DNA from: Candidatus Gastranaerophilales bacterium
GTDB lineage: Bacteria > Cyanobacteriota > Vampirovibrionia > Gastranaerophilales > Gastranaerophilaceae
Length of the DNA stretch: 47,118 bases
Assembly: GCA_947589425.1 (NCBI GenBank)
Contig: CANQAV010000003.1
Span: forward strand, 102,186-149,303
Direction: 5' to 3'
Shown: positions 18,525-24,767 of the stretch, one piece after another
Layout: every line of letters starts with the position of its first letter
Position numbering within the stretch: the stretch's first letter is position 1
Notes under the pieces: generated by a model
What the model was told of the DNA's origin: nothing
Database searches by the model: none
Seen by the model: the letters and a program-made list of their open reading frames with translations, nothing else
Translations under genes and position numbers: made by a program

Positions 18525-19088
18525 ATGAAAAAAACGGTTGAGCCAATCAGAAACAAAAAGGATATTTCGGCGCTTGAAAACTATTTTAAAAAAAACAGCA
18601 AAAGAAATCTTCTGATTTTTACTTTCGGTTTAAATACGGGGCTTCGGGTTTCGGATATTTTAAATTTGAATATTGAAAATGTAAAAACTAAAAATTATGT
18701 TGAAATAAGAGAGAAAAAAACAAAAAAATATAAAAAATTCCCCCTGAACTCAAAATTAAAAATTTTAATTAAAGATTACTTAAAAGAAAGAGAAAAAACA
18801 TATTCCCTAACAAATGACGAGCCTTTATTTATAGGCAAAAAAAGAAAAAGACTAAATCGGTCGCAGGTATATCGCTTTTTAAATTCTGCCTGCAAAAAGC
18901 TTAAAATCAATGTACATATAGGCACTCATACAATGAGAAAATCTTTCGGATATCACTTTTATAAGCAATATAAGGATGTTGCACTTTTGCAGAAAATATT
19001 TAACCACTCCTCGGCTGATATTACATTAAGATACATAGGGATTGATCAGGACGAAATAGATTTTTCATATTTAAATTTTGAACTTTAG
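18525..19088 (+). CDS. Short tyrosine recombinase (catalytic domain only)
   Basis: 187 residues, lacking the usual N-terminal arm- and core-binding domain. The catalytic set is complete: R41 ('TGLRVSD'), a basic beta-hairpin with K64/K65, H135 and R138 ('HTMRKSF'), H161 ('NHSSAD') and nucleophile Y170 ('LRYIGI'). AAAGGATA lies about 10 nt before the ATG. Only 14 bp after its stop begins the first of two perfect 21-bp inverted repeats flanking a 106-bp promoter-bearing segment. The simplest reading is a dedicated invertase for that switch. No phage genes are nearby. Confidence 0.93.
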   Translation: MKKTVEPIRNKKDISALENYFKKNSKRNLLIFTFGLNTGLRVSDILNLNIENVKTKNYVEIREKKTKKYKKFPLNSKLKILIKDYLKEREKTYSLTNDEPLFIGKKRKRLNRSQVYRFLNSACKKLKINVHIGTHTMRKSFGYHFYKQYKDVALLQKIFNHSSADITLRYIGIDQDEIDFSYLNFEL

Positions 19089-19102
19089 ATTTGCACCAAA
19101 AT

Positions 19103-19250
19103 ATCTAAAATGATGCAAAAGTCCTCTTTCGCTATAATATCATAAAAAAATTTGTCGAAAAGATAAAATTTCGACTTTGGTAAAAAGGAAATTGCGTTAT
19201 GAAAAATTAGCTTTTATAAGATTTTTAAAACTTTTGCATCATTTTAGATA
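19103..19250. repeat. Putative invertible segment: 21-bp perfect inverted repeats around 106 bp
   Basis: The arm at 19103-19123 (TATCTAAAATGATGC...) is the exact reverse complement of 19230-19250, and pairing stops sharply at both ends. The 106 bp between is too long for a normal hairpin loop. It holds a 7-bp palindrome (GTCGAAA/TTTCGAC) and a promoter-like pair pointing right. It lies between a tyrosine recombinase gene and the start of the AlgJ/AlgI-like operon, the layout of known phase-variable promoters. Confidence 0.82.
19192..19220 (+). promoter_or_regulatory. Promoter inside the invertible segment, facing the acylation operon
   Basis: TTGCGT at 19192-19197 and TATAAG at 19215-19220 are separated by 17 bp. 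Transcription would start near 19227, cross the right inverted repeat and reach the ATG at 19266. In the orientation given the operon would be ON; flipping would turn the promoter toward the recombinase gene. A TATAAT at 19134-19139 also lies inside but has no good -35. Confidence 0.6.
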
Positions 19251-19265
19251 AAGAAAATCTTAAAA

Positions 19266-20921
19266 ATGAATTTTAAAATCAAAAAAAGAGTAATTCTTGC
19301 AATAATTTTTACCGTTGTCACAATTATTGCAGCAAATAAATTCTGGTATTCGCACCTGCCTTTGCCTTTAAGCATGGATATTAAAGGGAAAAATACCTGT
19401 ACAATTGAAATTCAAATAAATCTTAAAGACTCAAATGATATAATGGCAAGAAAAATAAGGCGGGATAAAAAAACGCTGAATTTAAACGAAAATTTTAAAG
19501 CCGATTTTTTAATTAAAAATGTAAGACATCCGAAAAGACTAAAAATAGTAATATACGGACTTGAAAAAAACGTACCTTTAAAAATAAGCAAAATTGTATT
19601 TAACAACAAAGACGAATTAAACGACTTGGAAAATTTTTCGGCGGAAGAGGCTGAAATTACGGTTAAAAATAATGAACTTATAATAATTCCTCTCTCGGGG
19701 ACAATATATTTAACTTATGAAAAAACTCTAAAAACAAAAGAGCCGATTAAATTTGATTTTTGCGTTTTTATTATAATTCTTGTTTTATCTTATTTAATTT
19801 TTTATAAATTATCAAACTATAGTGCAAGCTTTAAAGACATAAACAAAAAATCACGAATTGAAATTATATTTTTAACAATATTTTTTATTTTTCTTTTTGT
19901 TCCAATGTCCCGTATCAATCAAGATGAAATATCAAAACAGGAAAACAGAACTCTTGCAAAATTAAAACCTCTTATATATAAAAACTGTATTATTAATTTC
20001 CGCTTCACAAAAGATTTTGACGACTGGTTTTGCGACAGATTTAATTTAAGAGAATTTTTCATCTCAGTATATGATACCAGATGGCTTCTTGCAAAAAACT
20101 GGAAAACAAATTCCGTACTTAAAGGGAAAGACAACTGGCTTTTTTCTAACAGCATTGAAAGCACAAACAGCTATACAAACGAAAATCCGTTTACGGAAAA
20201 TGACCTTAAAATTATCACCTCATATCTTGAAGAAGTGAATGATTACTGTAATAAACACAACAAAAAATTTTATTTTTTAATAGCACCCGATAAATCAAAA
20301 ATATACGGCGAATATTATCCGGATGAAATCAAAGCTCCAAAAACCCAATCAAGAGCGGAACAACTAACCGAATATTTAAGAAAAAATTCAAAAATAAATG
20401 TAATATACCCTAAAAGCGCTTTAATCAAAAACAAAGGAAAAGATTTGCTCTATTGGAAACAAGATACCCACTGGAACAATCTCGGGGGATATATCGGATA
20501 TTGCGAACTTATGAAAGAAATTAATAAAGATTATAAAGATATAGCTGTTTTTAAACCCAAAAGCTACACAAAAGAAACCCATATTGGCGATTTAAATAAA
20601 ACTCTTCCCAAAATCCTTCAAAAAGAAGATAAAACCCTCTATAAAACACCTTCTCAAGAAAACAAAGATATATGCGTCTTTCCCGAGTATGATAAAGGAA
20701 TAGTTAATTGTTTTAATAAAAACGAAAAAATTAACCTGATAATGTATCGGGACTCTTTTTCAAGGGCATTAATCCCCTATCTTTCATACTCGTTTAAAAA
20801 TTCAAAATTTATATGGCGCTATGATATTTCAAAAACGGTAATTGATGAAGGAGATGTTATCGTTCTTCAAGTAGTGGAGAGATTTTTGCATGAATTAAAG
20901 GAGAAAAAACTGCAGATGTAA
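19266..20921 (+). CDS. AlgJ/AlgX-like SGNH-type O-acyltransfer protein, copy 1
   Basis: 551 residues. A signal-anchor at about 8-24 is followed by an extracytoplasmic beta-rich part (about 35-160), two further membrane segments (165-182, 200-214) and a C-terminal AlgJ/AlgX-like domain (about 220-550). Catalytic-type motifs: 'KQDTHWNNLGGYIGY' with D400/H402, and a Ser in 'MYRDSFSRALIPY' (S497/S499). Such proteins pass acetyl groups delivered by an AlgI-type membrane acyltransferase onto exported polysaccharides. It is the first gene after the invertible segment. The 98 bp from 19868 match copy 2 almost exactly, hinting at gene conversion. The precise acceptor glycan is unknown. Confidence 0.85.
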   Translation: MNFKIKKRVILAIIFTVVTIIAANKFWYSHLPLPLSMDIKGKNTCTIEIQINLKDSNDIMARKIRRDKKTLNLNENFKADFLIKNVRHPKRLKIVIYGLEKNVPLKISKIVFNNKDELNDLENFSAEEAEITVKNNELIIIPLSGTIYLTYEKTLKTKEPIKFDFCVFIIILVLSYLIFYKLSNYSASFKDINKKSRIEIIFLTIFFIFLFVPMSRINQDEISKQENRTLAKLKPLIYKNCIINFRFTKDFDDWFCDRFNLREFFISVYDTRWLLAKNWKTNSVLKGKDNWLFSNSIESTNSYTNENPFTENDLKIITSYLEEVNDYCNKHNKKFYFLIAPDKSKIYGEYYPDEIKAPKTQSRAEQLTEYLRKNSKINVIYPKSALIKNKGKDLLYWKQDTHWNNLGGYIGYCELMKEINKDYKDIAVFKPKSYTKETHIGDLNKTLPKILQKEDKTLYKTPSQENKDICVFPEYDKGIVNCFNKNEKINLIMYRDSFSRALIPYLSYSFKNSKFIWRYDISKTVIDEGDVIVLQVVERFLHELKEKKLQM

Positions 20922-20992: not shown

Positions 20993-22742
20993 TTGGAAGC
21001 TGAAAAAACCAAACATTTTCTTAAAAAAAGAACAATTTTTGCAATTTTATTAACAATTTTGACTGTAATTTTAACCAATAATTATTGGTTTATTTTTAAA
21101 CCCATGCCCGTAGGTTTTGATATCTCTTCTGTTAGAGGGGGGGGGTTTAGATGTTGAAATACAGCTCAACAAAAAAGATAACAATGAATTTAGAAAAATA
21201 AAAAAAGATACAAAAACCATAGTTTTAAAAGAAAATTCAACAGTTAATTTAAATATCAGACGCTCTCGCTTTCCAAAAAGAATTAAAATTATTTTATCCG
21301 ATGTTAAAAACGGCGATATTTTAAAAATCAGCAACATAAATTTAAAAAACAAAAAGTGGAATATAAAAGACTATAGCAAATTCAAAGTTGAAGGTGCGGA
21401 AATTTTAAGCACAAATTCAAATTCCATAAACCTAAAAGCAAACTGTGAACAAATTTCCCTTGAATACCCCGAAACAATAAACATAAGCGCATCAATCAAA
21501 TTTGATATAAAAGCATTAATCATTATTTTAATTCTTACTTATTTAATATCATATAAGCTTTCAAGCTATGTAGCAGACTTTAATACCATAAAAGGAAAAC
21601 CCAAAACAGAAGTAGCATTTTTAACAATATTTTTTATTTTTCTTTTTGTTCCAATGTCCCGTATAAATCAAGATGAAATATCAATAAAAGAAAACAGAAC
21701 TCTTGCAAAATTAAGCCCTTTGATAAATGAATACAAGGAAATTAACTATCAATTCACAAAAGATTTTGACAACTGGTTTTGCGACAGATTTAATTTAAGA
21801 AATTGTTTTATCGGGTTATATTACACTATTAAAATTACACTGAATGAAAAAAACGAAAACGGTTTATATGATAAAACAACAGGCTTTATGTACGGGACGG
21901 GCGAGCTTAAGGAAATAAAACCGCAAGACATAAAAGAAAACCTTGAAGCACTTAAGAAACTGGAAGAATTTTCAAAAAGAAATAATATTAAGCTCTACGT
22001 TCTAATAGTCCCTCAAAAAACAGTAATATATAAAACCGATAAAACAGACAGAATAAGTAATTTTTCTCAAAAAGATTTCCTTCAATATCTTGATGAATTT
22101 AAGTCAAAATCTCATATCAAAATTATTTATCCTTATGAAGCTTTGCTTAAAGGAAGCAAAAACAATCTTGTATTTTTTAAAACAGAACACCACTGGAGCG
22201 ATGACGGGGCTTATATCGGATATCTTGAATTAATGAAAGAAATCTCAAAAGATTTTAAGGATGTAAAAACTCTTAAGGAAAATGATTTTAATTTTAGTTA
22301 TGATAACCTCATAAGAGGAGATTTTGAAAGGAAATATGCCTTTGGGACAACGGCAGAGTACCTTGGCGTACTTAATTTAAAAAAATATCATAAAGATAAA
22401 TACAGATATTTTACTCATAAAGACTTTGAAAATTTAAAAACCGTTAAAAAAACCAAAAAATTTCAAAGAAACAAATTCTTCTCTTATCCGAAAGGCGCAA
22501 ACCACAGGGTAATTATGCTCGGAACATCACAAAATGAAAATTTGTCTGAATTTATTCCTTTTACCTTCAAAAACGTTAAAAGAATAAGGACTAACAATGT
22601 AGAAGGAATTACCCGGGAAGAAGATGCAAAAATAATGAAATACTACAAAAATGAAATTCTGGACTATCATCCCGACATCATGATATTCTGTATCACATAC
22701 GGCAATATCGAAAACCTTAATCAATTATTCAATATGGAGTAA
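20993..22742 (+). pseudogene. AlgJ/AlgX-like protein, copy 2, frameshifted (phase OFF) at a poly-G tract
   Basis: The gene begins at TTG 20993 with AAAGGA 10 nt upstream: signal anchor 'TIFAILLTILTVILTNNYW', then 'PVGFDISSVRGGG'. A run of nine G at 21137-21145 throws it out of frame and it stops at 21157 after 54 residues. With eight G the frame continues 'GGGLDVEIQLNKKD' to 22742, giving 582 residues that align along their length with copy 1. Motifs 'KTEHHWSDDGAYIGY' and 'IMLGTSQNENLSEF' replace D-T-H-W and R-D-S-F-S, so active-site details differ. A homopolymer G run in such AT-rich DNA suggests slipped-strand phase variation; a sequencing error is the main alternative. Confidence 0.85.
21137..21145 (+). 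repeat. Poly-G tract (nine G) inside copy-2 coding sequence
   Basis: A mononucleotide run near codon 49, within 'VRGGG'. Eight or eleven G would give the full-length protein; nine gives truncation. Confidence 0.95.
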
Positions 22743-22744
22743 AT

Positions 22745-24154
22745 ATGCTTTTTAGTTCAATGACATTTATATTTGTATTTTTACCTATTGTACTTTTATT
22801 GTATTTAATTACAAAAAAAGAACTTCATAACCCAATACTTTTGGGGGCAAGCATAATTTTTTATGCCTGGGGAGAGCCGAGATATCTTGCCATAATGCTC
22901 TTAACCATAGTTATAAACTACTTCGGGGCAATTTTAATTGAAAATAAACCTGAAATTAAAAAGCTCACTCTTTTTATAAGCGTTTTGCTTAATCTTTCTT
23001 TCCTTGTTTATTTTAAATATTTCAATTTTATTTTAGATAATTTAGGCAATATTTTTCATCATGATTTCAACATGATAAATATTATTATGCCGATTGGTAT
23101 ATCTTTTTATACTTTTCAGGCGCTCTCTTATATTTTTGATGTATACAGAAAAGAAGTTAAAGCCCAAAAGGACATTTATAAACTTGCACTCTACATTTGT
23201 TTATTCCCCCAATTGGTTGCGGGTCCTATTGTAAAATATCACGATATTGAAGAACAGATAACTTCAAGGGAAGTAAATTTCAATAAAGTAAACCTCGGTG
23301 TTAAAAGGTTTATTTCGGGGCTTTCAAAAAAAGTGCTTATCGCAAACACCATGGGGCTTATTGCGGACAAAATATTTTCCCAAAATCCTGACTGTTTTTC
23401 CCATTTAATCTCGTGGATAGGCTCAATTGCCTATAGTTTTCAAATTTATTTTGATTTTTGCGGATATTCCGATATGGCGATTGGTTTAGGGTTAATTTTC
23501 GGCTTTAAATTTATGGAAAACTTTAATTATCCCTACATTTCAAAATCTATCACCGAATTTTGGAGAAGATGGCACATATCGCTGTCAAGCTGGTTTAAAC
23601 AATATGTCTATATTTCCTTGGGCGGAAACAGGGAAGGAAAATTAAAAACAATAAGAAATTTAGCAATTGTATTTTTACTCACGGGTATATGGCACGGGGC
23701 AAATTGGACTTTTGTAATATGGGGAATTTGGCATGGGACTTTTATCATAATTGAAAAAATATTGAATATTAAAGAATTTGAAAAAAGAAAACATCCTTTT
23801 TATGTTGATTTTTTAAGGCACATATACTGTATTTTAATTTTTATTACCGGCTGGGTAATCTTTAGAGCGGATAATATTCATTATGCAAAAGATTATCTTT
23901 TAAATATGCTTGGAATTTTAGATTTAAACAAAGAAAATTTCATCTATACCTTCTCATATTATGTTGACGTATATGAAATTATAATCTTTATCGCTGCGAT
24001 ATTATGCTCCATACCGCTATTTAAAAATATGATTTATCTGAAAAATAAATTTGCAAGGATAACAGTTAATTTATGGCTTTTAGCGTTAATGTTTTTATCA
24101 ACCTGTGCAATTGCTTCAGGCACATATAACCCTTTTATATATTTTCGGTTTTAA
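22745..24154 (+). CDS. AlgI-like MBOAT O-acyltransferase
   Basis: 469 residues with about ten membrane segments. MBOAT hallmarks: 'GISFYTFQALSYIFDVYR' (118-135), 'FPQLVAGPI' (154-162), 'DFCGYSDMAIGLG' (237-249), 'FWRRWHISLSSW' (272-283) and the catalytic-His stretch 'LTGIWHGANWTF' (H317), with H330 following. The family carries acyl groups, usually acetyl, across the inner membrane for polysaccharide O-acylation. It starts 2 nt after copy 2's stop, so it is co-transcribed and its translation may depend on ribosomes arriving from copy 2; the copy-2 frameshift could therefore lower AlgI too. Its 3' end overlaps the convergent gene by 20 bp. Confidence 0.93.
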   Translation: MLFSSMTFIFVFLPIVLLLYLITKKELHNPILLGASIIFYAWGEPRYLAIMLLTIVINYFGAILIENKPEIKKLTLFISVLLNLSFLVYFKYFNFILDNLGNIFHHDFNMINIIMPIGISFYTFQALSYIFDVYRKEVKAQKDIYKLALYICLFPQLVAGPIVKYHDIEEQITSREVNFNKVNLGVKRFISGLSKKVLIANTMGLIADKIFSQNPDCFSHLISWIGSIAYSFQIYFDFCGYSDMAIGLGLIFGFKFMENFNYPYISKSITEFWRRWHISLSSWFKQYVYISLGGNREGKLKTIRNLAIVFLLTGIWHGANWTFVIWGIWHGTFIIIEKILNIKEFEKRKHPFYVDFLRHIYCILIFITGWVIFRADNIHYAKDYLLNMLGILDLNKENFIYTFSYYVDVYEIIIFIAAILCSIPLFKNMIYLKNKFARITVNLWLLALMFLSTCAIASGTYNPFIYFRF

Positions 24155-24767
24155 CTTCATCTTTAATATATCTTATTCTAAATTTGTCTGATTTAGGAAA
24201 TATTCCCGCATAGCCTAAAAACAAAGATAAAATTATTGCTATCCAAAATCCGAAAACAAGAACAACTTCACTTTTAAAAGCAAGTCCGAGGTAAATCGCC
24301 AAAGCGCAGGTTAATACTGCAAATAAAATTGAAATCCCCGTTTTAATAAAGAAATTTTTCCAATTAATTGAATATTTTTTTAATCTGAAAAGACATATTG
24401 TTGCTAAGAGTGCTCTAAAAGCAAAAAACACAAGCAGCGAGGTTATAACTACATTGCTTATACCGCCAAATGTTTTAATTGCTCCGCTTGCTATTTTCAT
24501 CATAACGGTAGAATAGCAGACAAGAAGAGAATATAAAAGAATTATAAAAGACATTGTTCTTGATTTATATTTCAATAAAACAAATGCCATAAAAATCATC
24601 AGGCAAACATCAAAGATATAATTTAGAAACTGTTTTGATACAATGCTCACAACAAGCATAATGACAGATGATAATATTAAAAACCAAAACGCATCCCATA
24701 TTATTGTTTCACATCCCGAAATTTCGCTTAATTGCCTTTTGGGCTCGGGAAAATTGGTTTCGTTCAT
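24135..24767 (-). CDS. Hypothetical multi-pass membrane protein
   Basis: 210 residues. A short cytoplasmic head is followed by about six hydrophobic segments (around 24-45, 50-66, 72-90, 103-126, 140-165, 168-190) and a charged tail ('KSDKFRIRYIKDEVKTENI'). No transporter signature is recognised. It is convergent with the AlgI-like gene and overlaps its last 20 bp; opposing transcription could affect both. The upstream gap 24768-24950 holds nothing obvious. Confidence 0.75.
   Translation of the reverse strand: MNETNFPEPKRQLSEISGCETIIWDAFWFLILSSVIMLVVSIVSKQFLNYIFDVCLMIFMAFVLLKYKSRTMSFIILLYSLLVCYSTVMMKIASGAIKTFGGISNVVITSLLVFFAFRALLATICLFRLKKYSINWKNFFIKTGISILFAVLTCALAIYLGLAFKSEVVLVFGFWIAIILSLFLGYAGIFPKSDKFRIRYIKDEVKTENI

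Follow-up and report, generated by a model that had tools for sequence, protein, structure and literature searches.

Can a perfect inverted repeat that lies just beyond a small tyrosine recombinase gene mark a promoter that turns over, and which genes would such a promoter serve? The question is raised by a locus in a 47,118-bp stretch of DNA (the window; G000:C3:102186-149303; GC content, 33%) from a 1.87-Mb genome, whose best relatives in a contig search were Candidatus Gastranaerophilales MAGs. Gastranaerophilales, the lineage to which the organism most likely belongs, are gut relatives of cyanobacteria. A first-pass annotation had proposed that an invertible element resides here next to its own tyrosine recombinase, and this proposal is strongly supported by inverted spacers, constant spacing, and sister genomes with opposite orientations. 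We thus regard it as very likely that the element is a phase-variation switch beside its recombinase. The features are collected in Table 1.

Table 1. Features of the switch locus and of the second switch (window positions unless a contig or locus is named)
Feature	Position	Strand	Remarks
Small tyrosine recombinase, probable invertase	18525-19088	+	187 aa, catalytic domain only
Left 30-bp recombination site	19090-19119	+	Top-scoring 12-6-12 site; outer arm 19090-19101, spacer TATCTA 19102-19107, inner arm 19108-19119
Left perfect 21-bp repeat	19102-19122	+	Spacer, inner arm, and 3 bp
Invertible DNA between the two spacers	19108-19244		Crossover in the spacer seen in L187 versus L188
Probable promoter -10, extended, pointing left	19134-19142	-	TGATATTAT; score 7.0, 1.96 per kb
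Hairpin followed by T run, terminator-like	19154-19175	-	
Rightward promoter of the first-pass annotation	19192-19220	+	TTGCGT-17-TATAAG; weak
Right perfect 21-bp repeat	19230-19250	-	
Right 30-bp recombination site	19233-19262	-	Second-best 12-6-12 site; inner arm 19233-19244, spacer TAGATA 19245-19250, degenerate outer arm 19251-19262
AlgX-like SGNH acyltransferase, gene 1 of the presumed target operon	19266-20921	+	Pfam ALGX 4e-17
Second AlgX/DHHW-like SGNH protein	21117-22742	+	Pfam ALGX 2.8e-13, DHHW 2.4e-9
MBOAT O-acyltransferase, DltB-like	22745-24154	+	Pfam MBOAT 2.9e-34; TIGR04091 8.5e-46, below its cutoff
Second switch, same site type	L005 4531-4705 = G000:C17:8530-8704		

A small recombinase and its candidate sites

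The recombinase ORF ends 13 bp 5' of the first 21-bp repeat. Its product matches the Pfam family Phage_integrase (PF00589; 1.3e-29) with 103.6 bits, compared to a gathering score of 27.1, and R41, K65/K68/K70, H135, R138, H161, and Y170 were invariant across 20 homologues, which bears out the complete R-K-H-R-H-Y set noted earlier. The AlphaFold model (pLDDT 91) has a catalytic-domain fold that best matches XerA (5hxy; Z 19.0, rmsd 4.3, 181 aligned), with XerH (Z 17.6) and Cre (Z 16.9) as further matches; judging from this model, the protein is a catalytic domain devoid of the usual N-terminal arm-binding domain. It scored far below the NCBIfam equivalog cutoffs for XerC, XerD, and XerA (91 versus 220, 82 versus 330, and 82 versus 335 bits) and below those of FimB/FimE type (PRK09870 and PRK09871; 46 versus 221 and 47 versus 222 bits). 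Recombinases with TGCACC sites all fell together with that of the window in a supported clade of 12 (96/89). Small recombinases of a similar kind were also seen on phages of streptococci and on plasmids of Gram-positive bacteria; among the matches listed, nearly all had less than 50% identity. The 187-aa protein is most likely the enzyme that would catalyze inversion.

The 21-bp repeats are the longest inverted pair in the window (all pairs within 1.5 kb compared), and in 30 third-order Markov shuffles of the window the longest inverted repeat reached at most 18 bp. The perfect repeats reported in the first-pass annotation are therefore real and exceed those of shuffled sequence; their coordinates were off by one, and 107 bp separate them instead of 106. 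Comparison with relatives led us to redefine each end of the switch as a 30-bp site composed of a 12-bp arm, a 6-bp spacer, and a 12-bp arm. We scanned 450 bp 3' of the recombinase for the 12-bp arm TATGCACCAAAA followed by 6 bp and the reverse arm. The spacer of the right site proved to be the exact reverse complement of that of the left site, 143 bp away, so that the window locus carries inverted recombination sites with an identical spacer, as an inverton does. Viral contigs scanned for the window repeat gave no match, and when segments were folded as RNA, that of the window showed no clear excess (z -1.4).

Site pairs and inversion in related genomes

Absence of repeats next to recombinase orthologues had been named as an observation that would speak against a switch. 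Scanning by the arm motif alone the 31 close orthologues of the order Gastranaerophilales with enough flank, we found two sites with exactly reverse-complementary spacers 3' of the recombinase in 26, and no recognizable pair in the other 5. The two sites were 143 to 146 bp apart in all 26 loci, the intervening DNA differed, and the pair consisted of the two best-scoring sites in 20 of the 31. Spacer sequence varied by locus, with five different spacer pairs among the 26. A first comparison of eight loci had given the same picture: all had reverse-complementary spacers at 143 to 146 bp, ranking as the top two sites in seven loci and as first and third in one. The chance of a random six-base match, calculated from base composition, is near 5e-4, and in a ten-locus permutation test all spacers matched in 2 of 100,000 permutations. 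Several orthologue loci are near-copies, leaving 21 distinct segments. In the family as a whole, perfect repeats of at least 19 bp followed 12 of 83 recombinases, compared to 0 of 966 control windows.

The comparison of related genomes for a flipped segment, which the first-pass annotation had called for, yielded a direct trace of inversion, as judged by alignment of two sister genomes (G215 and G254; loci L214 and L215, or L187 and L188 with shorter flanks). L214 and L215 are collinear, with 94% identity, across the 3.5 kb that precede the switch and the 1.3 kb that follow it, and the 176-bp switch itself (L214 3839-4014 and L215 3953-4128) is 98.3% identical on the opposite strand. Between L187 and L188, identities rose from 123/203 as drawn to 173/176 once the stretch bounded by the outer arms, and nothing else, was inverted. 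The outer arms had not moved and the inner arms were swapped, which is what a crossover in the 6-bp spacer predicts. A TTGACA-17-TACTAT promoter points at a methyltransferase-like (restriction) gene in one sister and at the recombinase in the other. L026 and L150, which have a downstream gene in common (74% identical), are an independent case: the L026 segment has to be inverted before it resembles its relatives. Both pairs are species-level genomes and thus show that the family inverts, not how often or when. The window locus is known in one orientation, from one assembly; in the family, both orientations are seen, between sister species. Site architecture, matching of spacers, opposite orientations in sister species, and a second locus (see below) can all be read from the sequences, and flipping in the window strain is probable.

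Several further observations were made at these loci. On the promoter strand, a half-site, TATGCACC, abuts the -35 at +92/93 in 14 of the 21 distinct segments (carriers include L187, L188, L191, L197, L027, L028, and L151) and is missing in the window copy; it may let the recombinase repress the promoter. In 18 of 34 orthologues, L150 and L027 among them, a GCACC-N14-20-GGTGCA dyad lies about 45 bp 5' of the recombinase gene, where it overlaps the ribosome-binding region; it is missing in the window and possibly serves autoregulation of the recombinase. In L135, L137, and L041, the recombinase gene is enclosed by a 26- to 28-bp inverted repeat, and the whole gene may flip. L112 and L160 have a different small recombinase gene on either side of the switch, and the second of the two may be the switched gene. 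Gastranaerophilales-like recombinase loci were also present on contigs labelled Muribaculaceae or Fusobacterium (L027, JAMPCZ010000025; L032, JAMPIJ010000007), probably as a result of mis-binning.

Probable target operon and orientation of the window copy

The earlier assignment of a surface-glycan acylation operon as the target agrees with the Pfam matches of its three genes, and the operon recurs with recombinase and switch in another genus (L213). There, it is preceded by a TATCTA switch and by a recombinase of 71% identity, and its MBOAT protein and one AlgX-like protein are 66% and 39% identical to those of the window. Eight AlgX-like loci of congeners had neither recombinase nor repeats upstream, indicating that such an operon does not require the switch. 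In the wider family, switches precede glycosyltransferases, a sugar transferase, secreted proteins, a second recombinase, and methyltransferase-like and helicase-like defense genes. A 210-aa ORF without Pfam match (24135-24767) is convergent with the MBOAT gene of the window and overlaps its end by 20 bp.

We propose that the 187-aa recombinase would bind the two inverted 30-bp sites, cut in their common 6-bp spacer (TATCTA/TAGATA), and flip the DNA between them, a switch of ~144 bp whose predicted promoter is placed about 21 bp in from one of its ends. Facing one way, this promoter would drive the glycan-acylation operon (two AlgX-like genes and MBOAT) and presumably alter the surface; facing the other way, it would point at the recombinase and the operon would be left without a good promoter.

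Which of these states was assembled? The first-pass annotation had described a good promoter that points at the operon. Its -35 and -10 match 3/6 and 5/6 of the consensus, respectively, and its score of 4.8 (sigma-70 model) is reached about 11.4 times per kb of strand in the window, i.e., at chance level, so it is not good evidence for a promoter. The leftward TGATATTAT scores higher and sits at the promoter position of the family. Indeed, relatives have consensus promoters at the same position of the segment; counted from the upstream site, their -10 falls at +121 to +125, on one strand. With nearly all relatives that have a left-pointing promoter, the window segment gave its better alignment as drawn; with each of the five that have a right-pointing one, it did so after inversion. 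Altogether, 24 of 25 segment alignments agreed on leftward and one was a tie, the relatives being not mutually independent. With a position-specific matrix aligned on the left site, the segment scored -14.5 as drawn and -9.6 inverted, neither above shuffles. Because the family promoter position and 24 of the 25 alignments point left, we think it likely that the assembled state is OFF for the operon. The claim that the promoter now faces the operon is thus probably incorrect, since the relatives with which the segment aligns have theirs directed at the recombinase.

The assembled state could also be ON, with a rightward promoter, or unequal promoters could act both ways and set high and low rather than on and off. 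We consider this rather unlikely in view of the chance-level rightward score and the alignments, but it draws on two features of the segment. In the window, each strand has a promoter-like site where the family promoter sits (+123 and +125). The hairpin, one of two sites resembling terminators in a scan of 500 bp (0.1 expected), precedes the rightward -10 by 50 bp, an arrangement shared with relatives. The hairpin fits a rightward promoter better and weakens the OFF reading to the strength given above.

The switch might also be a decayed one, derived from an active inverton and locked by loss of the right outer arm. This arm, AAGAAAATCTTA, is degenerate and matches the arm consensus poorly, and the window copy could therefore recombine poorly; in C. 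difficile 630, a repeat shorter by one base goes with an apparently locked flagellar switch (PMC5386303). However, the spacer and inner arms of the window are still perfect over 21 bp, and arms are also poor in L152 and L188, yet the L188 type has inverted. A locked switch is hence improbable, and a switch that still flips is the reading we retain.

The nearest folds, XerA and XerH, and homologues on phages and plasmids would also fit attachment sites of a small mobile element, or a dif-like site for chromosome resolution. This is very improbable, as inverse pairs ~144 bp apart recur next to surface or restriction genes across many genomes, one such pair has inverted in place, and no element is bounded by the sites. 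Least credible is a regulator-binding or RNA hairpin feature without recombination: perfect dyads can be operators or hairpins, but here spacers match without arm matching, a recombinase adjoins, and the exact inversion between L187 and L188 contradicts it for the family.

A second switch and relation to known systems

The 28-mer core of the left site has one further copy in the genome (C17:8532-8559); its inverted partner lies at a distance of 145 bp, and the spacer pair is the same, TAGATA/TATCTA. One neighbor of this switch encodes a secreted repeat protein of 911 aa and the other a Cache-GGDEF-EAL protein; the predicted TTGACA-18-TAAAAT promoter of the switch points at the former. By eye, the 911-aa protein has a signal peptide and an autotransporter-like C terminus; the latter had no Pfam match, so "autotransporter" denotes resemblance only. 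As the remaining tyrosine recombinases of the genome are only 26 to 32% identical to the switch recombinase, the simplest reading is that one enzyme probably serves both surface loci in trans and would also flip the switch beside the secreted repeat protein. Allowing up to 3 mismatches, we found the site pattern in only 2 of 58 genomes, that of the window and G034 (0 for the reversed control), and both also have a close recombinase. In G034 as well, the site belongs to an inverted pair (L184 1501-1692, G034:C2:120772; TGTTTA/TAAACA, 162 bp apart), a second and distant one, which precedes a gene with a glycan-biosynthesis look.

The window switch is a known kind of system. For Gastranaerophilales or Melainabacteria, the literature searched, which covers few subscription papers, yielded no description of phase variation or of promoters that invert, in line with what the first-pass annotation had stated. 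Mpi of Bacteroides fragilis is a serine recombinase. It controls at least 13 switches, as quoted in PMC5386303, and in the Mpi/Tsr invertons, by such quoted accounts, a single enzyme flips many surface-polysaccharide promoters, as proposed here for two loci; site and phylum differ from those of the window switch.

By analogy, the closest working models are RecV of C. difficile (PMC5386303) and ipuS/UpaE of E. coli (PMC6083910). RecV is one tyrosine recombinase that acts in trans on several short invertible segments (the Cdi4 and cwpV switches), as would be the case here, and its flagellar switch (Cdi4) is 154 bp long with 21-bp imperfect repeats (PMC5386303). RecV sites lack a recognizable common core, whereas all sites described here share arms and length. 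In fimS, hyxS, and ipuS (FimB/FimE/IpuA type), as proposed here, a small tyrosine recombinase inverts a promoter and surface proteins are controlled; their repeats are short (7 to 16 bp), their recombinases are common to several switches, and ipuS, a 260-bp element, controls the autotransporter UpaE (PMC6083910). The window recombinase would work like these E. coli-type invertases, although it scores far below their NCBIfam cutoffs. PhaseFinder-type gut invertons, too, are promoters that invert in the vicinity of surface genes, and a tyrosine recombinase often adjoins them (PMC11892184). Unlike in those, the exact repeat in many relatives here is mainly the 6-bp spacer, and repeat-based finders would tend to miss the family.

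More tentatively, we suggest a Gastranaerophilales-wide module, possible though less likely than the readings we favor, in which the small recombinase would be both invertase and repressor of a fixed-length cassette of 143 to 146 bp, binding the half-site TATGCACC and the dyad of its own gene.

Surface variation in Gastranaerophilales seems to be undescribed in the literature searched, and the orientation of the switch, readable directly from existing metagenomes, offers a testable handle on it. Matched spacers and constant length provide a search rule for invertons with repeats too short for current finders. One recombinase family links surface glycans, secreted proteins, and restriction genes and, if our reading is true, in the window genome one enzyme would couple glycan acylation to a secreted surface protein.
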